Below, piece after piece: positions 1,075 to 59,237 of a DNA stretch of 64,000 bases. The position numbers and the translations under genes are program-made. The notes beneath the pieces were generated by a model. The model was not told the origin of the DNA, did no database searches, and saw only the letters and a program-made list of their open reading frames with translations. Within the stretch, counting starts at the first letter, position 1. Every line of letters starts with the position of its first letter. Source of the DNA: Microbacterium forte (GTDB lineage: Bacteria; Actinomycetota; Actinomycetes; Actinomycetales; Microbacteriaceae); NCBI RefSeq assembly GCF_031885415.1, contig NZ_CP116871.1, positions 2,480,001 through 2,544,000 of the forward strand, read 5' to 3'.

Positions 1075-1223
1075 CGGTCGCCCTCCTCGATCCCAGGAAG
1101 GTCGAACAGCGGCGGGCTCAGTCGCCGCGTCTGCTCTCGCTCGCGCGCCCCCTGGCGTTCGCGGGCGATTCGCTGGCGAGCTCTTTGGAACCGCTTCACG
1201 TCCTGGCGGCTTGACTTGTTCAT
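1071..1223 (-). CDS. Small hypothetical protein of the element
   Basis: This 50-residue frame starts at ATG 1223 (MNKSSRQDVKRF) and ends with a TGA at 1071-1073 that overlaps the ATG of the initiator-like gene. It is very basic and highly charged (RARQRIARERQGARERE) and ends in an acidic tail. The exact ATGA junction at its 3' end, matching the other junctions of this operon, is the main reason to accept such a short gene. The function is unknown; a DNA-associated accessory peptide is possible. Confidence 0.5.
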   Translation of the reverse strand: MNKSSRQDVKRFQRARQRIARERQGAREREQTRRLSPPLFDLPGIEEGDR

Positions 1224-1289
1224 TATCGGCACCCCTGGTTGCTCGATCCGGACCGATCGGGGGCGGTCAGATGCGTTGGTTGGTCTTGG

Positions 1290-1511
1290 TCAGGCTTCTG
1301 CGCCAAGGAGGGCGCGGAGGCGAGGGACGGGGATGAGGATCCGCTTGCCGATCCGGAGGACGGGGATCTCTTCTCGCTTGATCGCCTCATAGGCACTCCA
1401 GGTGCCGATGCCGAGAATCTGCGCGGCTTCCGGGACGGTGCATGTCGCGCGCCCGTTGAGGTCCTCGATCGTTAGGACGTGCCGCTCGTTGGCGGGGGCA
1501 GTCGTGGTCAT
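1290..1511 (-). CDS. Excisionase-like helix-turn-helix protein
   Basis: The product has 73 residues from ATG 1511 (MTTTAPANERHVL). The core TVPEAAQILGIGTWSAYEAI followed by PVLRIGKRILIPVPRLRALL is the standard excisionase or MerR-like DNA-binding domain of actinobacterial mobile elements. In that fold a helix-turn-helix is followed by a short basic wing and a C-terminal helix. An in-frame upstream ATG at 1577 has a better GAGG ribosome-binding site and would add 22 residues. The gene diverges from the integrase, the usual xis/int layout. Its likely job is to direct excision by the recombinase and perhaps to repress the operon that follows. Confidence 0.7.
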   Translation of the reverse strand: MTTTAPANERHVLTIEDLNGRATCTVPEAAQILGIGTWSAYEAIKREEIPVLRIGKRILIPVPRLRALLGAEA

Positions 1512-1606
1512 CTCTTGGCTCCGTTCGTTCGGTTCGGACCGGTGTCCTGGGACCAGAATAGGGTGTCTTAGGGACATGGAAACCTCATCTGAACTGGGAT
1601 TTATAT

Positions 1607-1640
1607 GACTGGGCAGTCGTATGTATGCGACTACCCAGTC
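1607..1640. promoter_or_regulatory. Inverted repeat in the xis-int intergenic region
   Basis: Left arm GACTGGGCAGTCG (1607-1619) and right arm CGACTACCCAGTC (1628-1640) match at 12 of 13 positions around an 8-nt spacer. The repeat lies between the divergent excisionase-like gene and the integrase. It is a candidate operator or recombinase/excisionase arm site. Confidence 0.45.
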
Positions 1641-1721
1641 CTCTCAAGGTGAGATCCACCCATGACGCAGGAAAGATCAGATCAGGGGCCAAAACCAGGC
1701 ACTCTTCGCGAAAGGCATCCC

Positions 1722-2927
1722 ATGACCCAGACCAGCCGAAAGGCATCCAGAATCGACTTCGGATCAGTTCGAAAACTTCCCTCGGGTCGGTGGCAAGCCC
1801 GATATCTCGACCCGGCAGGACGACCGATGACCGGTCCTCAGACGTTCCAGACGAAGCGGGAGGCGCTCGACCATCTCGCTGCCGTCCGCTCCGACCGAAT
1901 GCGCGGAACCTACATCGACCATCGCGCGGGACTCGTCCCCTTCGGCCCCTACGCCGCCGACTGGATCGCTCACGGCGGACGCCGAGGAGCCCTCGCACCC
2001 AAAACTCGAGATCTCTACGAGACGACTCTCGCCGGTCCACTCGCCCCTCTCCGGGAGATGCCGATCGCCTCGATCACTCCCTCGCAGGTCCGCGCCTGGT
2101 ACACCAAGACGGGCCGAGCCCTTGCGGCATCCGCCAAGCGGCAGGGCGGGGACGGATCATCCCGGCTCCGTCAGGCGTACAGTCTCCTCCGGGCGGTCAT
2201 GGCAACCGCTGTCCGAGATGGAATGATCCCCGCCAACCCATGCCAAATCGACCGCGCTGGAGCCGTGAAGCATGCGGAGCGGCCCTACCTCAGCCCGGAC
2301 GACCTCGCCCGGATCCTGGTTCACATGTCGGCGAAGTGGCATCTGCCGCTCCGGGTCGCGCTCGGCGCGCATCTCCGGCTGGGCGAGCTCCTCGGACTCC
2401 AGCGGCGCGACTACGTAGGAGGAGTGCTCACGGTGGAGCGGCAGATCGTTCGGGTTGGCGGGGAGGAGATCGAGACGGGCACCAAGTCAGGAAAGCCGCG
2501 AAAGGTGGTCCTCCCACCAAGCATCGCCGCCGCGCTGGAGGCTCACCTTTTGGCATCGTCCGGATTCGGCCTGGAGCCCATGTTCCCCGGTCCGGGCGGC
2601 GAGCGGTTCACGGGCGGGGCGATCGGTCAGGCGTGGCGGAAGGCGGCGGGTCGTGCGGGGTTGTCGGGGATCCGCCTCCACGATCTCCGCCACGCGAGCC
2701 TCACGCTGGCGGCTCAGGCTGGCGCTACGACCCGCGAACTCATGGATCGTGCTGGGCACTCCACTGCCCGAGCGGCGCTGATCTATCAGCACGCGGCGGA
2801 GGAGCGATCAGGAGCGATCGCCGCCGCCATGGATGCTCTCTCCGGAGGGTCGATGATGACCGCTACTGGCACGACTATGGCACGACAGGCGATTTCGGCT
2901 AGCGATCTCGAGGTGGACTTGCGATGA
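1722..2927 (+). CDS. Tyrosine recombinase / integrase
   Basis: This site-specific recombinase is expected to integrate and excise the element. The N-terminal part has an AP2-like arm-binding segment (DFGSVRKLPSGRWQARYLD) and a SAM-like core-binding domain. The C-terminal catalytic domain shows the family residues in order: Arg in LRLGELLGL, a Lys in the TKSGKPRKVVLP hairpin, HDLRH, GHST and the nucleophile Tyr in IYQHAAEER. All catalytic positions are present, so the enzyme is probably active. ATG 1722 has AAAGG upstream and gives a typical N-terminus (MTQTSRKASR). An in-frame ATG at 1662 with AAGGTGAG upstream is an alternative. The gene ends 78 bp from the 3' end of tRNA-Ala, the usual place for an integrase beside its attachment site. 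Confidence 0.92.
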   Translation: MTQTSRKASRIDFGSVRKLPSGRWQARYLDPAGRPMTGPQTFQTKREALDHLAAVRSDRMRGTYIDHRAGLVPFGPYAADWIAHGGRRGALAPKTRDLYETTLAGPLAPLREMPIASITPSQVRAWYTKTGRALAASAKRQGGDGSSRLRQAYSLLRAVMATAVRDGMIPANPCQIDRAGAVKHAERPYLSPDDLARILVHMSAKWHLPLRVALGAHLRLGELLGLQRRDYVGGVLTVERQIVRVGGEEIETGTKSGKPRKVVLPPSIAAALEAHLLASSGFGLEPMFPGPGGERFTGGAIGQAWRKAAGRAGLSGIRLHDLRHASLTLAAQAGATTRELMDRAGHSTARAALIYQHAAEERSGAIAAAMDALSGGSMMTATGTTMARQAISASDLEVDLR

Positions 2928-2947
2928 CTTCGCACGGCCACAGACGC

Positions 2948-2985
2948 GACGAAGGCCCTGGGCAGTAGAGCCCAAGGCCTTCGTC
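2948..2985. terminator. Strong hairpin between integrase and tRNA-Ala
   Basis: Arms GACGAAGGCCCTGGGC and GCCCAAGGCCTTCGTC form a 16-bp stem with one mismatch and the 6-nt loop AGTAGA. Neither strand has a clear T-run. It probably terminates the integrase and/or the tRNA transcript. Whether it belongs to the element or to the ancestral tRNA locus cannot be decided here. Confidence 0.6.
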
Positions 2986-3004
2986 ATACTGTCTCAACAC
3001 AGTG

Positions 3005-3077
3005 TGGAGCCTAGGAGATTCGAACTCCTGACATCCTGCTTGCAAAGCAGGCGCTCTACCAACTGAGCTAAGGCCCC
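3005..3077 (-). tRNA. tRNA-Ala (anticodon TGC)
   Basis: The complementary strand folds as a tRNA. The acceptor stem GGGGCCT pairs with AGGCTCC (one G-T wobble). The D-arm contains TAGCTCAGTTGGTAGAGC, the anticodon loop is TTTGCAA, and the T-loop is GTTCGAATC. The discriminator base is A and CCA is not encoded. Its 3' end faces the integrase gene, so it is the likely attachment site of the element to its left. Confidence 0.95.
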
Positions 3078-3102
3078 GTGAGGGAATTGTTAAGTTGAAA
3101 AG

Positions 3103-3176
3103 TGGGCCCACCAGGACTTGAACCTGGGACCTCTTCATTATCAGTGAAGCGCTCTAACCGCCTGAGCTATGGGCCC
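3103..3176 (-). tRNA. tRNA-Ile (anticodon GAT)
   Basis: The acceptor stem GGGCCCA pairs perfectly with TGGGCCC. The anticodon stem CTTCA/TGAAG encloses the loop CTGATAA with anticodon GAT, and the T-loop is GTTCAAGTC. CCA is not encoded. It lies 25 bp upstream of tRNA-Ala on the same strand. Ile and Ala tRNAs downstream of gyrA are a common bacterial arrangement. Confidence 0.95.
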
Positions 3177-3219
3177 GTCAACCTCCGAAACTTTACCGGA
3201 GATTTCCGGAAATACCCAA

Positions 3220-3254
3220 TCGAGGGCGGGGCACCGGCGCGCCCCTGCCCTCGA
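3220..3254 (-). terminator. Terminator-like hairpin after the DUF4097 operon
   Basis: TCGAGGGC-GGGGC pairs with GCCCCTGCCCTCGA around a short loop with a one-base bulge, directly after the stop codon at 3261. On the minus strand it is followed by TTGGGTATTT. Confidence 0.5.
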
Positions 3255-3260
3255 TCATGG

Positions 3261-13249: not shown

Positions 13250-14392
13250 TCAGCGGAGCAGCAGGTTGGGCTGCAGCAGGTACTTGAACGAGTCGAGTCC
13301 GGCCTGATCGACCGAGGTCTGGCTCGTGATCAGCACGGGGCTGAGCTTGTTCGCGTTGTCGCTCGAGGTGAACGTGACGCGCACGAACTCGCTCTTGACC
13401 GCTCCGAGTGCCTCGATGAGGTACTGCGGGTTGAGACCGAGAGTGACATCGTCGCCACCGTTCAGGATCGCGTCGACGGACTCCGATGCACGGGCGTGCT
13501 CACTGCCCGATGCGTCCATCGTGACGCTGTCGGACGTGAACGTGAAGCGCAGCGGAGCTGCACGATCCAGCACGAGCGACACACGGCGCACCGCTTCGAC
13601 CAGGTCGGCGGTGTTGACGACCGCGTAGTGCTCGGTCTGCTCGGGGAAGAGACGACGGACAGGCGGGAAGTTGCCCTTGATCAGCAGCGAGGTGACGGTC
13701 TTGTTGCCCGCCGTGAAGGCGATGATCTCACGATCGCCGGCTCCGGAGAACGCGATCTGGATCGTCCCGGCGTGACCGAAGGTCTTTCCGACCTCGAGAA
13801 GCGTGCGTGCGGGAACCAGTGCGCTCGCCTCGACGGCCTCGCCATCCCACGGCACGTCCCTGAGCGAGACGCGGTAGCGGTCGGTGGCGACCAGGCTGAG
13901 CGTGTGCCCGGAGACTTCGAGCTGGACACCGGTGAGCACAGGGGTGACGTCATCGCGTGATGCGGCGAAGCCGACCTGGGCGATCGCCGTTCCGAAGTCG
14001 TCGGCGGGAACCACACCGGACGAGCCGGACACCTCGGGGATCGAGGGATATTCCTCGACCGGCATGGCGGCCAGGGTGAATCGTGCGGAGCCGCAGGTGA
14101 CCGTGATGCTGCCGTCGTCCTCGACGGCGATCTCGATCGGCGCGTTCGGAAGGCGGCTGGCGATGTCGGAGAGCAGTCGACCGTGGACGAGGATCGTGCC
14201 GGGAGTGTCGACCGTGGCTTCGATGGTGGTCCGAGCGGATGCTTCGTAGTCGAAAGCGGAGAGAGTCAGTCCGGATCCGTCTGCCTCGATCAGGACTCCG
14301 GCGAGGATCGGCTGCGGGTTGCGCTGCGGAAGGAGCTTGACGACGAAGGACACAGCCTCGCTGAAGACATCGCGGTTGACCTGAAACCTCAC
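13250..14392 (-). CDS. dnaN: DNA polymerase III sliding clamp (beta subunit)
   Basis: The 380-residue protein has the three-fold repeated clamp architecture and the usual length. It begins MRFQVNRDVFSEAVSFVVKL and has recognisable domain boundaries near residues 120 and 250. It dimerises into the ring that tethers DNA polymerase III, and is the first gene of the leftward origin-proximal cluster. The non-coding oriC segment lies directly upstream. The C-terminal end (KYLLQPNLLLR) lacks the common MPMR motif but is consistent with other actinobacterial clamps. Confidence 0.97.
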   Translation of the reverse strand: MRFQVNRDVFSEAVSFVVKLLPQRNPQPILAGVLIEADGSGLTLSAFDYEASARTTIEATVDTPGTILVHGRLLSDIASRLPNAPIEIAVEDDGSITVTCGSARFTLAAMPVEEYPSIPEVSGSSGVVPADDFGTAIAQVGFAASRDDVTPVLTGVQLEVSGHTLSLVATDRYRVSLRDVPWDGEAVEASALVPARTLLEVGKTFGHAGTIQIAFSGAGDREIIAFTAGNKTVTSLLIKGNFPPVRRLFPEQTEHYAVVNTADLVEAVRRVSLVLDRAAPLRFTFTSDSVTMDASGSEHARASESVDAILNGGDDVTLGLNPQYLIEALGAVKSEFVRVTFTSSDNANKLSPVLITSQTSVDQAGLDSFKYLLQPNLLLR

Positions 14393-14885: not shown

Positions 14886-16277
14886 TCAGCGCCGACCGAG
14901 CTGCGTGGTGATCTCGGTCACCTGGTTGTAGATCGAACGACGCTCTTTCATGAGCTCACTGATCTTCTTGTAGGCGTACATGACCGTGGTGTGATCTCGG
15001 TTGCCGAACAGCTGCCCGATCTTCGGCAGTGACAGGCTCGTGCGCTCCCGACACAGGTACATGGCGATCTGACGCGACGTGGCGATCTGCTGCGACCTGC
15101 TCGAGCCATAGAGGTCATCGACGGTCAGCTTGAAGTACTGCGCGGTGGCGGTGATGATGTCGGTCGGCGAGATGATGTTGTCTTCCGCCGTGTCGATGAT
15201 GTCGCGCAGCACCGTCTGAGCGAGGGAGATGTCGAGAGCCGAGCGGTTCAGGCTGGCGAAGGCCGAGACCCGGATCAGCGCGCCCTCGAGTTCGCGGATG
15301 TTCGACGACACCACCGTGGCGATGTACTCGAGTACCTCGTCGGGAATATGAAGGGCTTCGCTCTGCGCCTTCTTGCGCAGGATCGCGATTCTGGTCTCGA
15401 GGTCGGGAGCCTGGACGTCGGTGATCAGGCCCCACTCGAACCGGCTGCGCATGCGGTCCTCGAAGCCGGTCAGGTGCTTCGGGGCGACGTCGCTCGTGAT
15501 CACGACCTGCTTGTTGTGGTCGTGGAGCGTGTTGAAGGTGTGGAAGAAGGCTTCCTGCGTCTCGGCGCGACCCTGGAGGAACTGGATGTCATCGATCAGG
15601 AGGATGTCGACATCGCGGTAACGAGCCTGGAAGGCCGCGCCTCGGTTGTTCGCGATCGAGTTGATGAAGTCGTTCGTGAACTCCTCACTCGACACGTACC
15701 TGACCTTGACGCCGGCGTAGAGCGACTGGGCGTAGTCTCCGATCGCGTGCAGCAGGTGGGTCTTGCCCAGGCCCGAGTCACCGTAGATGAAGAGCGGGTT
15801 GTATGCCTTGGCCGGCGCCTCGGCGACCGCGACTGCTGCGGCATGAGCGAACCTGTTGGACTGGCCGATGACGAAGTTGTCGAAGGTGTACTTGGGGTTG
15901 AGGCGTGATTCGTGACGCTGCTGCGTCGGCTGCTCCATCGGAGATTCGACGCGCGTCTGCTCCTGGCGGCCGTAGTCCGCAACGGCGATGGGCGCCGTCG
16001 GCTGCTCGGCGAGTTCGTGGTTGACCACCACTCGGTAGGAGGTGACCTCGTCGCCGATGTGTGAGAGAGCCTCCATGATCGGCAGCCGCAGCCGCTTGTT
16101 GATCTGCGCCGCGGTGAGATCGTTGGGTACCTCGAGATAGAGCGTCGCCGCCATCACACCGGCGGGAACCGCGAGGCTGAGGAATCCCTGGAGCTGAGGG
16201 GTGACTCGGTCATCCGCTTCGAGGAGCTCCTGCACCGTGGTCCAGATCGGAACGTCGGGCTGGGCAGGTGATGACAT
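14886..16277 (-). CDS. dnaA: Chromosomal replication initiator protein DnaA
   Basis: DnaA binds DnaA boxes at oriC, melts the DNA and recruits the helicase. From ATG 16277 (MSSPAQPDVPIWTTV) the product has 463 residues. It has an N-terminal domain I, a short Gln/Pro-rich linker (about 110-125), the AAA+ domain with Walker A GDSGLGKTHLLHAIG and Walker B DILLIDDIQF, and the C-terminal DNA-binding domain with the signature RDHTTVMYAYKKI. The open frame extends 44 residues upstream, but that extension runs through the promoter and a DnaA box, so the internal ATG is preferred. DnaA boxes upstream suggest autoregulation. Confidence 0.97.
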   Translation of the reverse strand: MSSPAQPDVPIWTTVQELLEADDRVTPQLQGFLSLAVPAGVMAATLYLEVPNDLTAAQINKRLRLPIMEALSHIGDEVTSYRVVVNHELAEQPTAPIAVADYGRQEQTRVESPMEQPTQQRHESRLNPKYTFDNFVIGQSNRFAHAAAVAVAEAPAKAYNPLFIYGDSGLGKTHLLHAIGDYAQSLYAGVKVRYVSSEEFTNDFINSIANNRGAAFQARYRDVDILLIDDIQFLQGRAETQEAFFHTFNTLHDHNKQVVITSDVAPKHLTGFEDRMRSRFEWGLITDVQAPDLETRIAILRKKAQSEALHIPDEVLEYIATVVSSNIRELEGALIRVSAFASLNRSALDISLAQTVLRDIIDTAEDNIISPTDIITATAQYFKLTVDDLYGSSRSQQIATSRQIAMYLCRERTSLSLPKIGQLFGNRDHTTVMYAYKKISELMKERRSIYNQVTEITTQLGRR

Positions 16278-16325
16278 GACGCTCCGTGCTGAGGGGCGAC
16301 GGGCCGTCGGGATGACGCGGCTCGC

Positions 16326-16335
16326 CTGTGGATAA
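16326..16335. promoter_or_regulatory. DnaA box in the dnaA upstream region
   Basis: CTGTGGATAA differs by one base from the consensus TTGTGGATAA. It lies 49 bp upstream of the dnaA start codon, a common position for autoregulation of dnaA. Confidence 0.6.
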
Positions 16336-16425
16336 CTTCGGATGCCACGGTAGTCACCACGGCTGTGAACGGCAACCTGCCCTGAGAAATCCGCGCGCGT
16401 GTTGCGCATACGTGCACGCGGCAGG

Positions 16426-17431: not shown

Positions 17432-18502
17432 GTGGGTCTTGACCTTCTGCTCGCCAGCGCAACACCGTCGCCGGAGCCTGCCTCCGGCGGCTTCGATCTG
17501 ATCGGAACCATTCTCTGGCCCCTCAAGTGGGTCGTCGAGCTCGTCCTCGTCGCCTGGCACTGGCTTCTGACCGCCGTCGGTCTGCCGGCAGCATCCGGTC
17601 TGACCTGGGTGCTCTCGATCGTCGGCCTCGTGATCGTGGTGCGCGCTGCCCTGATCCCGCTCTTCGTGAAGCAGATCAAGAGCCAGCGAAAGATGATGGA
17701 AATCGCTCCTGAACTGCGAAAAGTTCAGGAGAAGTACCGGGGCAAGAAGGATCAGCTGTCTCGTGAGGCGATGAGCCGCGAGACCATGGGCCTCTATAAG
17801 AAGCACGGCACGACGCCGATGTCGAGCTGTCTGCCGCTCCTCGTGCAGATGCCGATCTTCTTCTCTCTGTTCAGTGTGCTGAGCGATGTCTCGAAGCACC
17901 ACAATCAGGGTGTCGGCGGCGTGGGCCTGCTGAATGCAGAGCTCACCGAGCAGTTCTACAACGCGGAGCTCTTCGGGGTCGCGTCTCTTCACGAGACGCT
18001 CGGCAACGCAGTGGACGCCGGCAACACCACCGCGATCATCATCCTGGTCACGCTCGTCGTGCTCATGATCGCGTCGCAGTTCTTCACGCAGCTGCAGATC
18101 ATCTCGAAGAACCTGTCGCCCGAGGCCAAGACCGGCCAGGCGTACCAGATGCAGAAGATCATGCTCTACGTGCTGCCGCTCGGCTTCATCTTCTCGGGCA
18201 TCTTCTTCCCGCTCGGCGTCGTCGTGTACTGGTTCATCTCGAACCTGTGGACCATGGGTCAGCAGTTCCTGGTCATCCGCGAGATGCCGACTCCCGGTTC
18301 TGAAGCCGCGAAGGCGCGTGAAGAGCGACTCGCCCGCAAGGGCAAGGCGATCGATTCCTCGGGCAAGGTCGTTCCCATGGCCGCCTACGAAGCAGAGCAG
18401 CAGCGGCTGCTCGAAGAGGCGGAGCGCGCCAAGGCGCAGACTCCGAAGCGCCAGCAGCCCGTGGGCAAGAAGCGTGCCAAGAAGAAGGGGAGCGGTTCGT
18501 GA
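17432..18502 (+). CDS. yidC: Membrane protein insertase YidC
   Basis: The 356-residue Oxa1/YidC/Alb3 insertase starts with GTG at 17432. It lacks the large periplasmic domain of Gram-negative YidC, as expected. Hydrophobic segments occur at about 35-55, 60-80 (GLPAASGLTWVLSIVGLVIV), 130-150, 205-225 and 245-270. The conserved hydrophilic-groove Arg lies in VVRAALIPLFVKQIKSQRKM. The C-terminus is a long basic tail (GKKRAKKKGSGS) that can contact the ribosome. Its TGA overlaps the GTG of the following jag/khpB gene. Confidence 0.96.
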   Translation: MGLDLLLASATPSPEPASGGFDLIGTILWPLKWVVELVLVAWHWLLTAVGLPAASGLTWVLSIVGLVIVVRAALIPLFVKQIKSQRKMMEIAPELRKVQEKYRGKKDQLSREAMSRETMGLYKKHGTTPMSSCLPLLVQMPIFFSLFSVLSDVSKHHNQGVGGVGLLNAELTEQFYNAELFGVASLHETLGNAVDAGNTTAIIILVTLVVLMIASQFFTQLQIISKNLSPEAKTGQAYQMQKIMLYVLPLGFIFSGIFFPLGVVVYWFISNLWTMGQQFLVIREMPTPGSEAAKAREERLARKGKAIDSSGKVVPMAAYEAEQQRLLEEAERAKAQTPKRQQPVGKKRAKKKGSGS

Positions 18503-18990
18503 CCGACAACATGACCGAGACCGTGGAGCCCACGGTCGCCGAGCTCGAGAACGAGGGCGACGTCGCCGCTGACTACCTCGAAGAGCTGCTCGACATCGCT
18601 GACATCGACGGTGACCTCAACCTCGATGTCCGCCAGGGCCGCGCCTACGTGTCGGTCGAGGCTGAGGGAGATGGACTTGCTCTGCTGTCGGCTCCCGACA
18701 CGGTGCAGGCTCTTCAGGAACTGACCCGCCTGGCTGTTCAGAACAAGACCGGTTCGTTCTCGCGACTGATCCTCGATGTCGGCGGGTCTCGCGACGCACG
18801 CCGTCGCCAGCTCGAGACGCTGGTGAATGCGGCGGCCGCGAAGCTCGATGATGGAGCGACTCAGGCATCGTTGCCCGCGATGTCCAGCTATGAGCGCAAG
18901 CTTGTGCACGATATTGCCGCTGATCAGGGACTTGTTTCCGAGTCGTACGGCGAGGGTGCCGACCGCCACACGGTTCTGCGGCGTCGTTGA
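18499..18990 (+). CDS. R3H/KH RNA-binding protein Jag (KhpB)
   Basis: The product has 163 residues from GTG 18499 (GTGA overlap with yidC). It has an acidic N-terminus, a KH-like domain around 30-95 (DYLEELLDIADIDGDLNLDV, then GGSRDARRRQLETLVNAA), and a C-terminal R3H domain with ERKLVHDIAADQGLVSES. Jag/KhpB binds RNA and is linked to cell elongation and division in Gram-positive bacteria. Position directly after yidC is conserved. The stop codon is immediately followed by a parS-like site. Confidence 0.93.
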   Translation: MTDNMTETVEPTVAELENEGDVAADYLEELLDIADIDGDLNLDVRQGRAYVSVEAEGDGLALLSAPDTVQALQELTRLAVQNKTGSFSRLILDVGGSRDARRRQLETLVNAAAAKLDDGATQASLPAMSSYERKLVHDIAADQGLVSESYGEGADRHTVLRRR

Positions 18991-19006
18991 CGTTTCACGT
19001 GGAACA
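18991..19006. other. parS site 1 (jag-rsmG gap)
   Basis: CGTTTCACGTGGAACA matches the parS consensus TGTTTCACGTGAAACA at 14 of 16 positions. It sits between the jag stop codon and the rsmG start codon. Confidence 0.75.
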
Positions 19007-19024
19007 TCTGAGCGGGATGCTGTC

Positions 19025-19654
19025 GTGAGTGATGTCGATGTCGAGGTCGAGCCCTCCGTCGCGCCCGAGCTTTTCGGAGACCGGATCGAGCTGGCACGCC
19101 GGTTCGCAGCAGCCCTGACTGAGCATGGGGAAGAGAGGGGTCTGATCGGCCCCCTCGAGCTTCCGCGTCTGTGGACCAGGCACATTCTGAACAGCGTCAT
19201 CGCTGCTCCTCTGTTCCACGGATCGGTTGCGGATATCGGCTCCGGTGCGGGACTGCCTGGAATCGTGCTCGCGATCGCCCGCCCTGACGTGGAGTGGACG
19301 CTCATCGAACCGATGGAGCGTCGCACCACGTGGCTGAACGAGCAGGTGGCGGAGTTGAGCCTGGACAACGTCGAGGTCGTGCGCGCACGTGCTGAGGACG
19401 TGCCTCGTCCGGCGGGGTTCGATGTCGTCACCGCGCGCGCGGTCAGCGCGCTCAAGACGCTCATCCCGATCACCGCTCCTCTCGTTCGTGATGGGGGAGA
19501 GCTCCTGCTGCTCAAGGGGATGAACGCCGACAACGAGATCGAAGCGGCGCAGAAGCAGATCAAGAAGTTCCGCCTCTCAGACGTCCGTGTCGAAGTCCTC
19601 GGAGAGGGAGTCCTCGCTGAGAGCACCCGCGTCGTTCGGGCTCGGGTTCGGTAG
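19025..19654 (+). CDS. rsmG: 16S rRNA (guanine-527-N7) methyltransferase RsmG (GidB)
   Basis: The enzyme transfers a methyl group from SAM to G527 of 16S rRNA, and its loss gives low-level streptomycin resistance in many bacteria. GTG 19025 (MSDVDVEVEPSVAPELF) gives 209 residues, the usual length. The in-frame extension upstream would lie in jag and across a parS site. The SAM motif is VADIGSGAGLPGIVLAIARP, preceded by LWTRHILNSVIAAP and followed by ARAEDVPRPAGFDVVTARAV. In most actinobacteria parA follows within about 200 bp; here about 3.9 kb intervene. Confidence 0.95.
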   Translation: MSDVDVEVEPSVAPELFGDRIELARRFAAALTEHGEERGLIGPLELPRLWTRHILNSVIAAPLFHGSVADIGSGAGLPGIVLAIARPDVEWTLIEPMERRTTWLNEQVAELSLDNVEVVRARAEDVPRPAGFDVVTARAVSALKTLIPITAPLVRDGGELLLLKGMNADNEIEAAQKQIKKFRLSDVRVEVLGEGVLAESTRVVRARVR

Positions 19655-20131
19655 ACAAAGCCGCGCACTGCAGCTCCTAAGGGATCTTGGCCAGACGCGC
19701 CGGGAATCGTCGGAATACAGGGTCCGCCTTTTCGGACGTGGCACCCACTCCAGTGCTGAGTGGTCCGGCTGAGATGGACGGTTCGGATCTACGCGCGGGG
19801 GCGTTTGACCCCCACGTCCCTGTCGGCGGGCGATAGGTCTACGACAACTCCTGCGGTTCTGACGTTCTCGGTGAAGTCTTCTCTGGTGGCGCCCCTGCCG
19901 CGGCATCGCAGGCGAACCCTCGCGGCAACTGAGGTCACCCGCCTGGTTCCAGGACGAACGGTGCCCGCGTGTCACCGGTCCGCGCTCGTGCATCGCGACG
20001 TCAGCGTCCGCGGGAGGTGGATGCCGAGGAGGTGCAGGAGCCCTCGGAGATCCTGCGCGCCGTGAGTGGCGCTGATCTGGGGCGATGGGGAGTGCACGAG
20101 GGACTTCGGCTGGCGTGGCGAGTGTATTCGA

Positions 20132-20147
20132 TGTTTCACGTGAAACA
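20132..20147. other. parS site 2
   Basis: Perfect consensus TGTTTCACGTGAAACA. Confidence 0.9.
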
Positions 20148-20306
20148 CACACCGGAGTCGATGCTCTTCGACCGGGAGCGCCAGCGGGTGCAGGAGCGGG
20201 AGCGGGCGTGGGCTGCGCCGGCGAACCCGCTCGTCCACCCTGATCTTCGCCGTGGGCAGTGAAGGTGAGTCATAGTGGCAGCGTGGTTCGGTCACGCGTC
20301 GGTGGG

Positions 20307-20340
20307 AACAAGGAGTGTTTCACGTGAAGCACTCCTTGTT
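20307..20340. other. 34-bp palindrome enclosing parS site 3
   Basis: Outer arms AACAAGGAGTG and CACTCCTTGTT match perfectly and enclose TTTCACGTGAAG. The parS-like core at 20316-20331 is TGTTTCACGTGAAGCA. Only one base pair of the whole 34-bp palindrome is mismatched. It could act as a specialised ParB site or, when transcribed, as a hairpin terminator. Confidence 0.75.
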
Positions 20341-20522
20341 TATGCCGCTGCTTTTTGGTCTTAGGCGTCGCGGTGTACTTCGCGAAGTTCACTTGCCGGC
20401 CTGCGCGATCCGAGTCGCAATCGACACAGGTGTTGAACCGGTGTCGCGGTCGCATGCGACTTCTCGTCGTGAGTATGGGAGGTGACCGGGTGTCACTGCC
20501 CGGTCGGCCCGTTCGAGGGTTT

Positions 20523-20612
20523 GGTGGATCGGCATGGTGTTTCACGTGAAACGCTTCTGACGCGGGAGCAGTGGTCCGCTCATAGGGCTCGACACCCGCC
20601 GTGAGCGTCACT
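20523..20612. repeat. Direct duplication copy A (contains a parS site)
   Basis: This segment of about 90 bp shares GGTGGATCGGC, the parS site, CGCTTCTG, GCTCATAGGGCTCGAC and GAGCGTCACT with copy B, 115 bp downstream, with scattered substitutions. Confidence 0.75.
20538..20553. other. parS site 4
   Basis: TGTTTCACGTGAAACG, 15 of 16 matches, inside duplication copy A. Confidence 0.88.
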
Positions 20613-20637
20613 ATCCGCTCCGGCAGTCCGGGGGATG

Positions 20638-20727
20638 GGTGGATCGGCGTCGTGTTTCACGTGAAACGCTTCTGGTGAAGGAGCTGTGGTTTGCTCATAG
20701 GGCTCGACGCCCGCCGCGAGCGTCACT
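20638..20727. repeat. Direct duplication copy B (contains a parS site)
   Basis: Second copy of the roughly 90-bp segment, offset by 115 bp from copy A. The parS core is identical while the flanks have diverged. Confidence 0.75.
20653..20668. other. parS site 5
   Basis: TGTTTCACGTGAAACG, 15 of 16 matches, inside duplication copy B. Confidence 0.88.
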
Positions 20728-20999
20728 CCCCCTGTTCGGCCTGGGCCGGGTCAACGAAGTCGCCGGGCATTGAGCCTGCGCGGCGAGATCTCATGAAGGC
20801 GCGGGCATGCGTCATGTGCACGTCCCTGGAGTAGATCCTTTTCAGTGAGAGGTATCTATCCACCCCGGTTGACAGTGGTGACAATGCTCTGTCGACCGCA
20901 CCGAGCCGGAGGGACCGGACCGATCCGAGTAGTCAGGGCGGGCGGGGTGCTATCTCGTTATGTCTTCAGCTGCGCTTTCAATAGGGGATCCTTTGAGCA

Positions 21000-21015
21000 T
21001 GTTTCACGTGAAACG
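21000..21015. other. parS site 6
   Basis: TGTTTCACGTGAAACG, 15 of 16 matches to the consensus. Confidence 0.88.
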
Positions 21016-21291
21016 CACCTCTCTGCCCCTCGGGGGAGAGACCCTCGTCCGGAGTGACTCGTTCGTCCAGCGTCAGTGGAGTCGGCGAAATACCTGAACG
21101 TAGTGCCGCGATTCGAGATCTGGTCGTGCCGCTGACACGCCTTCGCGACCTTCCAATCAGCCCGGCTGCCTACGTGCATAGTGGCTGTTCGTAGCCGCGA
21201 TAACGGTGCTCGTGGCGTGAGGAGTCGAACCGCGACAGGTGGCGGTGAGGTGTGACCACATCTAACACGCACCATCTGGGTATGGGACGGG

Positions 21292-21307
21292 TGTTTCACG
21301 TGAAACG
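21292..21307. other. parS site 7
   Basis: TGTTTCACGTGAAACG, 15 of 16 matches to the consensus. Confidence 0.88.
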
Positions 21308-21633
21308 TCATTGTGAGAAGCGTCGTCTACCCCAGAAGGCTCGAGTGCGCCCGCACCAGTCGGCGCGTACAGCCATGAGATGGCGATAACAGTGGCAGCC
21401 GAGAGGGTTCGTACCTCTTAGCGATGCCGCGGTGCGTTGCGGCATCGTCTCCTCACCAGAGGAACATGGAGGAGTCCTTTGGAGCGTGCTTCCACACACC
21501 CAGCGGAACCGCAGGGTCGTGTTGGGAGTGTCACACGTCCGTTGTGTCCTATGGCGAACGAGCCGTAGGCGCGAGATTGGAGGTCTGGACCTGATTGGGG
21601 GGGAGGGGCTGCACAGAGGATGATCATCAAGGG

Positions 21634-21649
21634 CGTTTCACGTGAAACA
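21634..21649. other. parS site 8
   Basis: CGTTTCACGTGAAACA, 15 of 16 matches. It is followed within 36 bp by two degenerate copies. Confidence 0.88.
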
Positions 21650-21651
21650 TC

Positions 21652-21685
21652 GCGCTCACGTGAAGCAGCTGTCTCACGTGGAACA
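21652..21685. other. Two degenerate parS-like sites
   Basis: GCGCTCACGTGAAGCA (21652-21667) and TGTCTCACGTGGAACA (21670-21685) keep the CACGTG core but lose several flanking positions. They may be weak ParB sites or decaying copies. Confidence 0.45.
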
Positions 21686-22318
21686 CCGTGGTCGCGTGAC
21701 TCTCATATACGTGACTCGAGCGGTCCGATCAGATTCTGAGTGCGACTGGGACTATGGGCCGCGGGAGTTCGAGCCCCACAGGAGGCCACCTCTTGGGGTT
21801 ACGTGAAGTGCAGGCGACCCGTTTTAATCGCGGGATGTGCGATCCCACGACGGTGGGTGGTCGGGCTTTCCGGCCTTGGTGGCTGACCCAAGCACGGGGA
21901 AGTGGGGATACGCGCTGGGTAGGAGGCCGTTCCTATTCCGAAGACTCACTTCACGCGTTTGGGGCCAACACACGCTGTGGCAACAGAGGGTAGGTGAGCG
22001 ATTTGCGAGGCTCTTCAGGACGGCCGAACTACGGAGAGCTCTCGCGCGTAGACCGTGAGCGGCGCGGCCACATCAGGAAAAGGGGTCTCTGACCCAACTA
22101 CCCCGATGACCGGAGACCGAGTCAGTGCGACGGTGCCCGAGAGCGCCGGAGTCACCCGGCGCATCGATCGTGGAGGAGCCGAACGGAACGCAGGGACCGT
22201 CGCGACGATAGGGGTCGACGATAGGGGTCACAGTGAGTCGCGCGATCCGTAGAGGGGCAAGCCAGCCGATGTGCCGTCAGCATGGGTACAGTCGGGTGGC
22301 ACTGACGCGGAGAGCCAA

Positions 22319-22334
22319 TGTTCCACGTGAAACA
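22319..22334. other. parS site 9 (upstream of the kinase gene)
   Basis: TGTTCCACGTGAAACA, 15 of 16 matches, 16 bp before the kinase start codon. Confidence 0.85.
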
Positions 22335-22350
22335 TCGGTATCGTGAGCAC

Positions 22351-22809
22351 ATGGTTCGCTTGCTCATCACTGGTATGTCGGGTGTCGGCAAGTCGAGCGT
22401 ACTCCGCGAGTTGGAGGAGCGGGGCTACCCCGTGGTCGATACGGACTACGGCCACTGGACCACCGAGGCGGGGCTGTGGGACGACGTTCTCATGGGTGCT
22501 CTGTTGGGGGAGAGTACCGAAGTGGTCGTGTCCGGCACCGTCGAGAATCAAGGCGACTTCTACGACCGCTTCGATCACGTGGTTCTGTTGTCGGCGCCCA
22601 TCGCGGTACTTCTCGACAGGGTACGGCGACGCACCACGAACCCCTACGGCTCGACCGCAGCTGAGCAGGAAGAGATCACGTCGAATCAGGCGTCGGTTGA
22701 ACCACGGCTCCGTGCGACGGCGACGGTGGAGATCGACGCTACGCAATCCCTCGAATATGTGGTCGATCGGATCGAAGAGCTCTTGCGCGGCGCTGACCGT
22801 TCCACGTGA
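22351..22809 (+). CDS. P-loop nucleotide kinase-like protein
   Basis: The protein has 152 residues from ATG 22351 (MVRLLITGMSGVGKSSVLRE). An in-frame ATG at 22318 would add MFHVKH... encoded by a parS site and is not preferred. Walker A is GMSGVGKSS (8-16). A Walker B-like hydrophobic strand ends in VVLLSAP (about 83-90), and an Arg-rich lid follows (DRVRRRTTNPYGSTAAEQ). This pattern fits small shikimate-kinase/AAA_18-type kinases of unknown substrate found in actinobacteria. It is the only credible gene between rsmG and parA and is framed by parS sites on both sides. Substrate and role are unknown. Confidence 0.8.
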   Translation: MVRLLITGMSGVGKSSVLRELEERGYPVVDTDYGHWTTEAGLWDDVLMGALLGESTEVVVSGTVENQGDFYDRFDHVVLLSAPIAVLLDRVRRRTTNPYGSTAAEQEEITSNQASVEPRLRATATVEIDATQSLEYVVDRIEELLRGADRST

Positions 22810-22813
22810 AACA
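22798..22813. other. parS site 10 (3' end of the kinase gene)
   Basis: CGTTCCACGTGAAACA, 14 of 16 matches, overlapping the kinase stop codon. Confidence 0.8.
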
Positions 22814-23563
22814 CACCGACTTCGTTCGCTCGCGAGGATGCACGCGCGAGAACGATGGCAGAGGCCGACAAGGCTCCGCGGCGCCGACAGGGATGACCCA
22901 GCCGTTGTCCCATAGCTGTGCGCAGGCTGCCGGCAGCGCAGCGGATGCGCAGTTCAGGAGGTGATTCGGCTGATCTCCACCGGTATGAGCGCGCATCACA
23001 ACGATGGTGAGGATGAGCCCAGCCCGCACATCGCGTGCCGCACGGGATGATGCGTTCCTGCTGTTCGACCACTTCGCGTGTGAGGCCCACGATGCAGAGG
23101 GCGAGGGCTGGTCACAGTCGGCGATGCTCCAGCGGACGACGACGCAGCCGTGATCCCCCGCCGGCGTGTGTGCAGCCCAGGACGGGAGACGAGACGCCAC
23201 GCCAAGGCAACACACACAGAGCGTGATCCATCTTCCGTGCCACCATCGTGCACACCATGCGAGGGAGTCGATGATGACGAAGGCGCGGGGACCGCAATCG
23301 CGCACATCCACCGGGAGTGAAGGTCCGGGACCAGCTCGTGCTCCGATCCCGCGCACGACGGAGCGCCTCTGAGCCCTACCCATGCTTCGCCCCCAGAACC
23401 TGAGCGCGCAGCGGGGCGTGTGCGCCGCGAGACTCGCTGCTCCCGGGCGAGTTGACCCGGAGAGACTCTCGGAAATCGCCACCGATCCCGCCGCCAGCGC
23501 CAGCTCCGACGCAGCAACGTCCCCCGCAGCGATTAGAGTGGAGGACGGCCCCGAAAGGAGTGG
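22814..23563. other. Gene-poor stretch before parA
   Basis: About 750 bp without a convincing gene. A leftward open frame spans most of it, but it has no recognisable domain and an unusual, Cys/Trp/Ser-rich composition, and rightward frames are short. Apart from the parA ribosome-binding region (AAAGGAG at 23554-23560) I see no conserved element. Confidence 0.55.
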
Positions 23564-24490
23564 ATGTTTCACGTGAAACAGCCCGAAAAGGCATCACCGA
23601 AGGACTCTTTCGGGATGGATACGCCGCTCGCGCGGGAACTCGCCGACCTCTCCGCTCGACGCCGTGCGCTCGAGACGGTGAACATCGATTTCACCGGAGA
23701 CACTCGCATCCTCACGGTCTCGAACCAGAAGGGCGGTGTCGGCAAGACCACGAGCGCCGTCAACGTCGCTTCGGCACTGGCGGGTCTTGGCGCCAAGGTC
23801 CTGGTGATCGACCTCGACCCACAGGGCAACGCATCGACCGCTCTCGGTGTGCCGCACAACGCCGATACCCCGAGTGTGTACGACGTTCTGATCGACGACG
23901 TCCCGCTCGCCGACATCGTGCAGCAGAGCCCGGAAGACGAGAACCTCTTCTGCGCTCCGAGCACCATCCACCTCGCCGGGGCTGAGATCGAGCTCGTGGC
24001 TCAGGTCGCGCGTGAGCATCGCCTGCGACGAGCGCTCGACGCTTATCTCGTCGACAGCCCGATGGATTTCGTCATCATCGACTGCCCTCCTTCTCTGGGT
24101 CTGCTCACGATCAACGCCTTCACGGCGGCGAGTGAGGTCTTCATCCCGATCCAGTGCGAGTACTACGCACTCGAGGGGCTGAGCCAGCTTCTCGGCAGCA
24201 TCCAGATGATCCAGAAGCACCTGAATCCTGGGCTTCATCTCTCCACGATCCTGCTGACGATGTTCGACGGCCGCACGCGGCTGGCGCAGCAGGTCGCTGA
24301 CGAGGTCCGCACACACTTCCCCGATCAGGTGCTCGACACCGTCATCCCACGCTCGGTGCGGGTGTCGGAGGCACCGAGTTTCGGTCAGACCGTGATCGCC
24401 TACGATGGGCAATCCGCCGGCGCCGTCGCGTATCGCGAGGCCGCTGTCGAGATCGCGTCGCGGACGGCGACGCAGAGCAAGGAGAAATGA
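23564..24490 (+). CDS. parA: Chromosome partitioning ATPase ParA (Soj)
   Basis: ParA is a deviant Walker-type ATPase that moves ParB-parS complexes on the nucleoid. The 308 residues have a variable N-terminus of about 47 residues. The deviant Walker A KGGVGKT is at 56-62 (SNQKGGVGKTTSAVNVA), the A' motif is VIDLDPQGNASTALG, and Walker B is FVIIDCPPSLG. The C-terminus contains TVIPRSVRVSEAPSFGQTV. The start at ATG 23564 follows AAAGGAG. The first codons (MFHVKQ) are formed by a perfect parS site, so ParB binding could affect expression. Its TGA overlaps the parB ATG. Confidence 0.97.
   Translation: MFHVKQPEKASPKDSFGMDTPLARELADLSARRRALETVNIDFTGDTRILTVSNQKGGVGKTTSAVNVASALAGLGAKVLVIDLDPQGNASTALGVPHNADTPSVYDVLIDDVPLADIVQQSPEDENLFCAPSTIHLAGAEIELVAQVAREHRLRRALDAYLVDSPMDFVIIDCPPSLGLLTINAFTAASEVFIPIQCEYYALEGLSQLLGSIQMIQKHLNPGLHLSTILLTMFDGRTRLAQQVADEVRTHFPDQVLDTVIPRSVRVSEAPSFGQTVIAYDGQSAGAVAYREAAVEIASRTATQSKEK
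23565..23580. other. parS site 11 overlapping the parA start codon
   Basis: Perfect TGTTTCACGTGAAACA. It begins at the second base of the parA ATG and encodes residues 1-6. Confidence 0.92.
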
Positions 24491-25458
24491 TGGCGAAGCG
24501 CACTGGACTGGGTCGGGGCATCGGTGCTCTCATTCCCACAGCAGATCAGTCCGAGCGTCCCGTGGATGTGTTCTTCCCCGGTGCCAACCTGCGTCCGGCG
24601 ACGGATCAGACCAGCGACCAGCCTGCCGCTGAAGCCGACCTCGAGGTCGTGCCCGGCATCCACCTGATTCAGGTCGACCCGCAGAAGATCGTGCCGAACC
24701 CGCGCCAGCCGCGTACGCACTTCAATGCGGAGGATCTCGCGGAGCTTGTGCACAGCGTGCGCGAGTTCGGCGTGCTGCAGCCGGTCGTGGTGCGCAAGAA
24801 CAGTGACGGCGAGTACGAGCTGATCATGGGGGAGCGGCGCACCCGCGCTGCCCGTGAAGCCGGCCTGGAGAAGATCCCCGCCATCGTCCGCGAGACAGCC
24901 GACGAAGATCTCCTGCGCGACGCACTGCTCGAGAACCTGCACCGCTCCGAGCTGAACCCCCTCGAAGAGGCCTCGGCCTACCAGCAGCTGCTCGAGGACT
25001 TCGGCATCACCCAGGAGGAGCTGGCTACTCGGATCGGCCGATCGCGCCCGCAGATCAGCAACACCATCCGCCTGCTCAAGCTGCCCATGCCCGTGCAGCA
25101 GCGCGTGGCCGCAGGTGTGCTGACCGCTGGACACGCTCGCGCGATCCTCAGCCTGGAGACGCCGGAGGCGATGCAGCGTCTTGCTGACAAGGTCGTGAAC
25201 GAAGACCTGTCGGTACGAGCCACCGAGGTCGCCGCGAAGACCGAGCCGGCGAGTCCTGGTCGCACCGCGAAGCCGACCCCCGGCGCCCGCCGAGCCTATC
25301 TCGATGAGGTCGCCGGCACCCTCGGGGATCGCCTCAACACCCGGGTCAAGGTCTCGCTGGGTGCACGAAAAGGCCAGGTCATCATCGATTTCGCTTCGAT
25401 CCAGGACCTGAACCGGATCCTCAGCGAACTCGGCGAATCGGGGTATGGCCCGGCGTGA
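24487..25458 (+). CDS. parB: Chromosome partitioning protein ParB
   Basis: ParB is a CTP-dependent DNA clamp that loads at parS and spreads. The 323 residues start at ATG 24487, overlapping the parA stop codon. An N-terminal ParA-interacting segment (MAKRTGLGRGIGALIP) is followed by a disordered acidic linker. The CTPase/ParB N domain carries NPRQPRTHF and GERRTRAAREAG. A helix-turn-helix (ITQEELATRIGRSRPQISNT) reads parS, and a C-terminal dimerisation domain follows (VKVSLGARKGQVIIDF). Its target sites are the cluster immediately upstream of parA. Confidence 0.97.
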   Translation: MMAKRTGLGRGIGALIPTADQSERPVDVFFPGANLRPATDQTSDQPAAEADLEVVPGIHLIQVDPQKIVPNPRQPRTHFNAEDLAELVHSVREFGVLQPVVVRKNSDGEYELIMGERRTRAAREAGLEKIPAIVRETADEDLLRDALLENLHRSELNPLEEASAYQQLLEDFGITQEELATRIGRSRPQISNTIRLLKLPMPVQQRVAAGVLTAGHARAILSLETPEAMQRLADKVVNEDLSVRATEVAAKTEPASPGRTAKPTPGARRAYLDEVAGTLGDRLNTRVKVSLGARKGQVIIDFASIQDLNRILSELGESGYGPA

Positions 25459-57961: not shown

Positions 57962-58793
57962 GATCGCCGTCCTCGACGCGCAGGGAGTCGTCGTGCGCTA
58001 CCCCGGGAGCCCGCCGGTGGTCGCCGTCGACGGCGTCTCGCTGACCGTCGCCCCTGGAGAGACCGTCGCGCTCGTGGGCGAGTCCGGCAGCGGCAAGTCG
58101 AGCCTGGCCCGCGCGGTCGTCGGCATCGAGAAGCTCGCCGGGGGAGAGGTGCGGTTCCGCGGCGAGCCCGTGAAGCCGCTCGGCATCCGCCGGCGGGATC
58201 TCGCTCTCACCGGCATCCAGATGGTGTTCCAGGATCCGTCGACGTCGCTCAACCCGCGGCGTCGCGTGGGCGACCAGATCGCCGACGGCATCGCGACCGC
58301 CCGCGCTCGCGGCGCCGAAGGATCGACCGTCCCCGAGTGGCTCGACCGCGTCGGGCTGCCCACCGAGGTCGCCACGCGCTTCCCGCATCAGTTCTCGGGC
58401 GGTCAGAAGCAGCGGCTCGCGATCGCGCGGGCGCTCGCCGCGCGGCCGTCGCTGCTCGTCGCCGACGAGCCGATCTCCGCTCTGGATGCATCGACCCAGA
58501 CGAGCGTCGCCGGTCTCATGCGAGACCTCGTCGCCGAGGCCGGCGCGGGGATGCTGTTCATCTCGCACGACCTCGCCGTCGTCCGGCGCATCGCCGATCG
58601 GACCTTCGTGATGTTCGCCGGACGCGTGCTCGAAGCGGGGGCCACCGATCGTGTGTGGTCTGCGCCGCAGCATCCGTACACTCAGGCGCTGCTCGCGGCG
58701 ATCCCCGAGCCCGACGGAGCAGGTCGCATCCCGGTCGCGCCCTCGACGAACGAGCGCATCGTCTGGTCGGAGATCGCCCCCGTCATCGACTGA
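57954..58793 (+). CDS. Peptide-type ABC transporter ATP-binding protein (DppF-like)
   Basis: ATG 57954 gives 279 residues. Walker A is GESGSGKSSLARAVVG, Q-loop MVFQDPSTSLNP, signature FSGGQKQRLAIARALA, Walker B LLVADEPISALDA and switch His FISHDLAVVR. The C-terminal QHPYTQALLAAIPEPDGAGR is the oligopeptide-type tail. It is the last gene of the rightward importer; two hairpin repeats follow. Confidence 0.93.
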   Translation: MSEIAVLDAQGVVVRYPGSPPVVAVDGVSLTVAPGETVALVGESGSGKSSLARAVVGIEKLAGGEVRFRGEPVKPLGIRRRDLALTGIQMVFQDPSTSLNPRRRVGDQIADGIATARARGAEGSTVPEWLDRVGLPTEVATRFPHQFSGGQKQRLAIARALAARPSLLVADEPISALDASTQTSVAGLMRDLVAEAGAGMLFISHDLAVVRRIADRTFVMFAGRVLEAGATDRVWSAPQHPYTQALLAAIPEPDGAGRIPVAPSTNERIVWSEIAPVID

Positions 58794-58899
58794 CGTCTGT
58801 CGTCCGCCCGCTCGGGCGCTTGCCCGCTCGGCTGTTCGCTCGGCTGTTCGCTCGCTCGGCTGTGCGCTCGCTCGGACGACATCTGCCCCACTGCCCCCC

Positions 58900-58977
58900 G
58901 GGAGGAGATCTGCTCCTCGGGAGGACGGATGGGCGCGAAGCCTCCTCCCGTGGCGCAGTCGTCCTCCCGACGGGAGG
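58900..58977. repeat. Palindromic GGGAGGAGATCTG element, copy 1
   Basis: Starts GGGAGGAGATCTG. Inside, CGGGAGGACG faces CGTCCTCCCG-type arms, with a nested CCTCCTCCCG. It forms a long G+A-rich/T+C-rich hairpin downstream of the ABC operon. Confidence 0.7.
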
Positions 58978-59051
58978 GCCCTCGAGGCCTCAGCCTGATC
59001 GGCGGGTCACGGCGCCGCTGAACACGGCTGGTGCGTTCGCGTCCGCCCCTC

Positions 59052-59120
59052 GGGAGGAGATCTGTCTCCGGGGAGGAGGTTCCGAACCCGATCCTCCTCC
59101 CGAAGCGCAGATCTCCTCCC
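59052..59120. repeat. Palindromic GGGAGGAGATCTG element, copy 2
   Basis: Outer arms GGGAGGAGATCTG and CAGATCTCCTCCC match perfectly over 13 bp, and inner arms CGGGGAGGAGG and CCTCCTCCCG form a second stem. Related to copy 1 about 150 bp to the left. Confidence 0.75.
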
Positions 59121-59237
59121 AGGGGATGGCCCGAGAGGGTGGGTCGAGGGATGACCCGAGCGGATGCTGCGCCAGCAGAGCCCGGAACGCACCGCGGGCC
59201 GAGGCGATCGCCCCGGCCCGCAGCATCTGCTGGTGGA

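Follow-up and report, generated by a model that had tools for sequence, protein, structure and literature searches.

A dense parS array between rsmG and parA in Microbacterium forte and its variation across the genus

The parS array and its locus

We analyzed a 64-kb window of the Microbacterium forte chromosome (contig NZ_CP116871.1, positions 2,480,001 to 2,544,000; "the window" is this whole stretch) in which a dense cluster of parS, the 16-bp palindromic site of the ParABS partition system, lies directly upstream of parA. The genes run in the order jag, rsmG, a 3,909-bp gap, parA and parB. The jag-like gene, which carries an R3H domain (18499-18990, plus strand; Pfam R3H, E=3.9e-16), ends in a stop codon that is followed directly by the first parS. 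Next come rsmG, encoding a 16S rRNA methyltransferase (19025-19654, plus strand; Pfam GidB, E=2.3e-48), the expanded rsmG-parA gap (19655-23563), parA (23564-24490, plus strand; Pfam AAA_31, E=3.4e-58) and parB (24487-25458, plus strand; Pfam ParB_N, HTH_ParB and ParB_C), whose product also matches solved ParB/Spo0J relatives (best E=3.1e-51). As landmarks of the origin we used dnaA (14886-16409, minus strand; Pfam Bac_DnaA, E=1.8e-72) and dnaN (13250-14392, minus strand; Pfam DNA_pol3_beta, E=8.9e-44); parS 1 sits 2.6 kb from dnaA, a distance to the gene, with dnaA and dnaN standing in for the origin itself. The locus thereby combines the marks of a ParABS centromere of the Spo0J type: parS above chance, linked parA and parB, and dnaA and dnaN nearby. 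An SMC-family frame of 1,198 residues is present in the same genome, and the closest named locus is that of Microbacterium sp. MYb54 (ParA 90%).

Scoring by mismatches to the consensus TGTTTCACGTGAAACA places twelve parS with at most two mismatches within 18991-23580 (4.6 kb), two of them exact, seven with one mismatch and three with two. parS 1 (18991-19006, two mismatches) occupies the jag/rsmG junction, ten sites fall in the gap, and parS 12 (23565-23580, exact) overlaps the parA start codon. The gap sites comprise parS 2 (20132-20147, exact); parS 3 (20316-20331), parS 4 (20538-20553), parS 5 (20653-20668), parS 6 (21000-21015), parS 7 (21292-21307), parS 8 (21634-21649) and parS 10 (22319-22334), each with one mismatch; and parS 9 (21670-21685) and parS 11 (22798-22813), each with two. 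One degenerate parS-like site with five mismatches (21652-21667) lies 18 bp from either neighbor. Three parS-like sites are thus arranged in exact 18-bp steps at 21634-21685, with the degenerate one in the middle, a spacing tighter than nearly all neighbor distances in the arrays of the genus.

A second-order Markov model of the 64 kb (20 simulations) predicts no site with up to two mismatches and 0.05 sites with exactly three. A scan of the whole genome for the 16-mer, proposed in an earlier note on this DNA, found no equal density elsewhere: all 12 parS with up to three mismatches in the 3,753,259-bp, single-contig genome fall in this region, as do all seven exact TTTCACGTGAAA cores, whereas a reversed-pattern control gave one match at up to three mismatches and no exact core. 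The dense parS cluster described in that note is therefore confirmed, with its count of eleven sites at up to two mismatches and two degenerate ones corrected to twelve and one. The half-site GTTTCAC occurs 18 times in the region versus three times in the remaining window, nearly all of these occurrences being accounted for by full sites, and the half-site GTTCCAC five versus eight times. Site distances below 400 bp in the window showed no helical phasing at 10, 10.5 or 11 bp.

The earlier note had also described about 3.9 kb of nearly gene-free DNA between rsmG and parA, and this held: across three thresholds, open reading frames (ORFs) cover 0-12.6% of the gap versus 78.3-82.5% of the remaining window. 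Its single recognizable gene, which is kinase-like, makes up 12.6% of the gap, compared with 80.4% ORF cover elsewhere in the window. These cover figures are approximate, as the codon-based scan passes over rsmG (its long frame overlaps jag); the flanks were scanned alike as a control. Three more gap ORFs (19969-20259; 22739-23569, minus strand; 23382-23573) have no Pfam match, and Rfam yielded no match at E up to 1 for 18900-23700 and none at gathering scores in six relatives with long gaps. The gap has 63.3% G+C, versus 66.7% for the window. Next in length among window stretches without a scoring ORF are 1075-3260 (2.2 kb, at the strict threshold) and 57962-59237 (1.3 kb, at all three).

Variation in gap length and parS number across the genus

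To place this locus among its relatives, we compared Microbacterium genomes. From 59 genomes we retained 54 loci, leaving out three genomes with distant ParA matches only (G016, G039, G041) and two with parA near a contig end (G003, G030). Gap statistics refer to the 52 of these loci with both rsmG and parA, two others having no rsmG on the contig (G009, G057), and per-gap parS counts include the site at the parA start. Adding 20 near relatives picked by DNA match to the window gap, one of them without rsmG (G281), gave 71 loci in total. ParA matches were present in 78 other genera, 60 of which represent the family here; family medians lean toward genera nearer Microbacterium, because G367, G417 and 16 low-ranked genera were left out.

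The rsmG-parA gap of the 52 Microbacterium loci ranges from 85 to 11,388 bp (median about 2,108) and holds 2-17 parS (median 7). Across the 60 other Microbacteriaceae genera, by comparison, the median gap is 103 bp with a median of one site; the gap exceeds 1 kb in 14 of them, and at least five gap sites occur in two. The earlier note's statement that rsmG and parA lie close together in relatives is thus true of the other genera and fails within Microbacterium, where gap expansion characterizes the genus and not this genome alone. All six genera whose ParA matches best (G398, G408, G415, G421, G366, G382) show gaps longer than 1 kb that hold 3-4 sites, and the expansion may therefore predate the genus. 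Of 71 genus loci, 46 have a parS near the rsmG start; among the 60 other genera, 40 have one there and 43 have one within -16 to +24 of the parA start. These two sites, being common to other genera, are probably ancestral, and the remaining sites would constitute the expansion.

Longer gaps hold more sites (Spearman 0.80 over 52 loci, 0.76 over 71). Independent contrasts computed on a FastTree tree of five proteins upheld the relation (r=0.70), and none of 20,000 sign flips gave a value as large. Among the 71 loci, the window ranks 12th by gap length and fifth by site number, with 2.8 sites per kb versus a median of 2.9. parS in the sampled Microbacterium genomes are almost entirely confined to the parA locus: 48 of the 58 other genomes together contain 366 matches with at most two mismatches, of which 363 belong to the fetched parA locus and 352 fall between the jag end and the parA start. 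The three matches outside the locus come one each from G009 (whose locus is cut by the contig end), G025 and G047. In 47 of the 48 genomes, the locus sites span a median of 2.7 kb and at most 8.5 kb.

Scarcity of genes is likewise general. The gap DNA of the 71 loci (194 kb) has 6.9% ORF cover versus 71% in the flanks, falling to 3.5% at a stricter threshold, and three of the gaps, of 8.6 kb (L052), 7.8 kb (L050) and 6.7 kb (L049), contain no ORF even at a looser one. The gaps of L081 and L054, from two other species, hold probable genes, with frames of 188-328 residues recognized by codon score alone, and genes may settle in an array. A k-mer scan of the 71 spacers with parS and the kinase gene masked gave nothing convincing, the top 8-mer TATCGAGA being present in seven genomes.

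Duplication, turnover and persistence of sites

Self-comparison of the window gap identified one tandem duplication, whose copies at 20492-20612 (plus strand, carrying parS 4) and 20607-20727 (plus strand, carrying parS 5) are 82.6% identical over 121 bp (E=1e-30). No other repeat emerged from this comparison, Tandem Repeats Finder reported no tandem array in the window, and the window does not show the many head-to-tail units, each with a parS, of a satellite-like array. Tandem arrays with at least two parS are found in 11 of 74 loci (the window counted among the 74), with parS-bearing units of about 290 bp (G052 and G043), 183 bp (G190), 196 and 113 bp (G036), 142 bp (G012), 143-151 bp (G018) and 193 bp (G040). 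Direct repeats that share a parS in register occur in 14 of 52 loci. In L052 (G049), about 4.8-3.9 kb upstream of parA, 148-bp tandem units stand in about 6.4 copies without parS. Duplication is a real and repeated route to new sites, yet it is not specific to parS and not enough to account for the window. The earlier note's proposal that the cluster was shaped by duplication thus holds for one window pair and for the parS-bearing arrays of relatives, and leaves most window sites unexplained.

The DNA between the sites changes quickly. A blastn search of the window gap against 365 other genomes of the genus gave some match in 152; most of the listed matches cover the kinase gene or the final 50-90 bases upstream of parA, the others are short, and among the matches listed none exceeds about 140 bp except at the kinase gene and just before parA. 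Four-fold sites in five genes show 27.5% difference between the window and G100, its nearest relative, yet just 14-16% of the gap aligns. This is below what simple drift at that divergence would leave, which points to turnover by insertion, deletion and replacement. Its pace appears uneven: nine pairs share at least 92% parA identity, and in eight of them under 45% of the gap could be aligned, compared with 86-93% in the ninth (L181/L183).

To ask whether sites outlast the DNA around them, we scrambled the parS letters before alignment (two runs of five scrambles) and counted a success when the flanks predicted the other genome's parS within 5 bp. In the trio L181-L183, parS was predicted in place for 6-9 of 9, 4-7 of 8, 7-8 of 9 and 5-6 of 8 sites, and in the pair L186/L187 for 2-4 of 5, versus 0-0.6% of control positions away from sites. 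The DNA around the persisting sites is just 60-74% identical, and sites in these genomes thus outlast their neighboring DNA. Aligned cores with at least 13 of 14 bases identical numbered 3/6, 4/7, 5/8, 3/7 and 2/3, versus 12-21% of control windows, a less tidy result than placement because scrambling shifts the register. Pieces aligned by BLAST with parS masked covered three cores in one pair (one of them with at least 13 of 14 bases identical) and no core in seven pairs. A plain MAFFT comparison of sites was set aside as circular where the DNA is not alignable.

Spacing also departs from chance. After removing 16 loci with parS-bearing repeats (the window included) and thinning the rest to 40 with less than 86% parA identity, 30 of which have at least five sites, we found over-even spacing at p<0.05 in 10 of the 30 (Fisher p=4.5e-12). 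None of 184 relative gaps was below 0.1 of the mean, versus about 17.5 expected. Such evenness could have been left by old duplications that have decayed beyond recognition.

The one recognizable gene of the window gap, a small P-loop kinase-like gene (22318-22809, plus strand; Pfam AAA_18, E=5.2e-12), is bracketed by parS: its longest frame begins at parS 10, and parS 11 overlaps its stop codon. A relative of this gene lies in the gap of 19 of 134 loci, window included, a count favored by our choice of near relatives by gap DNA match; in L190 and L193 the matches or frames look incomplete. The stop codon falls inside a parS at one fixed offset in 11 of the 19 loci, four more have a parS just past the stop, and 12 have one at the aligned start of the frame. 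The gene's place differs among relatives, being close to parA in some and to rsmG in others, and segments bounded by parS may therefore move as units within the array.

A proposed compact centromere, its alternatives and its precedents

We consider it likely, on sequence comparison, that the region is a compact chromosomal centromere, a genus-wide array of ParB loading sites that grows and shrinks and that grew within a once-short rsmG-parA spacer, whereas many bacteria have their parS more widely dispersed. Work on ParB has established that a parS loads ParB-CTP (cytidine triphosphate) clamps, which then slide away, and the anatomy of the locus is consistent with this. ParB would bind each parS, close on CTP and slide off as a clamp, and a dozen loading sites in 4.6 kb would fill the gene-poor stretch with clamps, forming a dense partition complex a few kilobases from dnaA. 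After replication, ParA would pull such complexes apart, and ParB would load SMC from the array. We infer ParB binding, clamp loading, condensation and SMC loading at the array; of the earlier note's platform for ParB and SMC, the confined array near dnaA and dnaN, parA, parB and an encoded SMC-family protein are present, and its role as a platform is a plausible extension of them. Genes are probably scarce in the gap for two reasons: a clamp-filled zone would suit transcription badly, and intervening DNA that holds no genes is free to change. Selection for a gene-free gap, on the ground that clamps are disturbed by transcription, is a guess. Sites would be gained partly by tandem duplication of parS-bearing segments and lost by deletion. 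Over short times single sites would be kept and very close sites would be rare, and selection presumably acts on single sites in the window's own lineage too.

Several observations weigh against this reading, and most of them would suit a gap of neutral clutter, in which one or two ancestral parS suffice and the extras hitchhike on random tandem duplication where ParB blocks gene expression. Single sites suffice for wild-type-like growth in Corynebacterium glutamicum, as reported in PMC7083940. Long arrays are dispensable within the genus, since three Microbacterium loci have gaps of 85-115 bp with just two sites each, and G035, G037 and G054 hold three parS in the whole genome. Direct repeats without a shared parS are present in 16 of 52 loci, about as common as those with one. 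The window's own sites cannot be traced in its nearest relatives: 0-1 of 7 were predicted in place against G100 (control 2.8%) and 1 of 7 against G297 (control 3.2%), with 1 of 7 for G100/G297 and 1-2 of 5 for L191/L193. The four distant comparisons together placed 0-2 of 5-7 sites, with controls at 1.5-3.2%, in gaps too divergent to separate loss or gain of sites from failed alignment. Since persistence could not be seen between the window and its closest relatives, arrays may turn over as wholes, together with their sites. The evenness of the window's own spacing is not significant either (p=0.125). We nonetheless regard neutral clutter as unlikely. Sites persist in the trio L181-L183 and the pair L186/L187 amid DNA that has diverged around them, spacing is over-even even in genomes with no detectable parS-bearing repeats, and unselected 16-mers should decay, yet the full 14-base core is intact in 372 of 445 gap sites, a proportion favored by their preselection at up to two mismatches.

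A mainly transcriptional role, with ParB controlling genes from the parS at their starts (parA, the kinase gene, the rsmG junction), would fit the placement of some sites. The parA start codon lies inside parS 12, such that the first residues, MFHVK, are parS-encoded; across the genus, parS stands at an identical offset from the aligned first ParA residue in 61 of 74 loci, with a crude Shine-Dalgarno-like word upstream in 57 of the 61 (a count made without a control set), and the kinase gene is bracketed by parS. Most window sites, however, lie in gene-free DNA far from recognized gene starts, and eight of the 61 loci have no start codon at this parS (53 do). An ATG at parS is also partly a property of the motif, as the base before parS is A in 45%. 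No sigma-70-like promoter was found in 19600-23700 by a scan that handles high-GC promoters poorly. We therefore give a mainly transcriptional role little credence, although gene regulation could be a side role of parS and ParB feedback on parAB through parS 12 is possible. A third possibility, that a mobile element or decayed genes with a chance abundance of parS left the gap behind as a scar, is in our judgment very improbable. The kinase gene occupies differing places in arrays and has DNA matches far from parA in other genomes (G010, for example), and the G+C content of the gap is slightly lower than that of the window; against this, all 52 gaps carry at least two parS despite widely differing length and sequence, the only matches of the window gap longer than about 140 bp among those listed are the kinase gene and the DNA just before parA, and the three further gap ORFs match no Pfam family.

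Dense parS clusters are already known, and the nearest precedent for the compact centromere proposed here is that of Myxococcus xanthus, described as a dense cluster of 22-24 ParB-bound (in vitro) parS upstream of parAB in the origin region (PMC3899335, PMC3778016). The two share more than ten parS within a few kilobases upstream of parA. They differ in that the M. xanthus cluster is reported to pack 22 sites into 3 kb and to lie about 4 kb from parA (PMC3899335), whereas the Microbacterium array reaches the parA start, has 2-17 gap sites and varies widely within the genus. In the actinobacterium C. glutamicum, ten clustered, ParB-bound sites (parS1-10) are reported from which the chromosome is folded with SMC, yet that cluster spans 35 kb and lies 73 kb from oriC (PMC7083940), compared with 12 sites in 4.6 kb beside parA here. 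Seven Streptomyces loci in our set (L091, L093, L094, L096-L098, L100) likewise have several parS in the vicinity of parAB, including one inside the rsmG-parA spacer and another near the parA start, but their gap is 338-493 bp, with further sites 2.9-5.3 kb downstream and no spacer array; for S. coelicolor, 22 parS near the origin are reported (PMC5815017). Bacillus subtilis uses the same kind of 16-bp motif, described as scattered over the chromosome (PMC8299390, PMC8357415), while the parS of most bacteria are described as clustered within 5-40 kb (PMC8357415). Site number governs condensation in vitro by B. subtilis ParB, which is reported to have condensed DNA with 7, 13 or 26 parS and not with 1, 2 or 4 (PMC8299390); the genus median of seven sites falls on the condensing side of that assay, which may be coincidence. 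What appears new is the genus-wide, variable array of Microbacterium. In literature searches, no listed title or abstract opening on parS with Microbacterium or Microbacteriaceae describes it, nor does any of the matches listed for parS arrays, repeats, numbers and evolution, although a 2007 parS survey may include member genomes.

These findings touch on the question of why bacteria keep many parS when one can suffice. The genus offers a natural series, with 2-17 sites in gaps of 85 bp to 11 kb, in which to test the effects of site number, spacing and gene-free DNA on ParB loading, on condensation and on the fidelity of segregation. A further-reaching idea, which we hold tentatively and think somewhat less probable than even, is that Microbacterium has a regional centromere resembling the centromeric DNA of eukaryotes: non-coding kilobases that turn over within the genus, satellite-like in places, with an evenly spaced motif as their sole shared feature, under selection for length and site number and evolving fast. 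The Microbacterium array would then offer a bacterial parallel to fast-evolving centromeric DNA.

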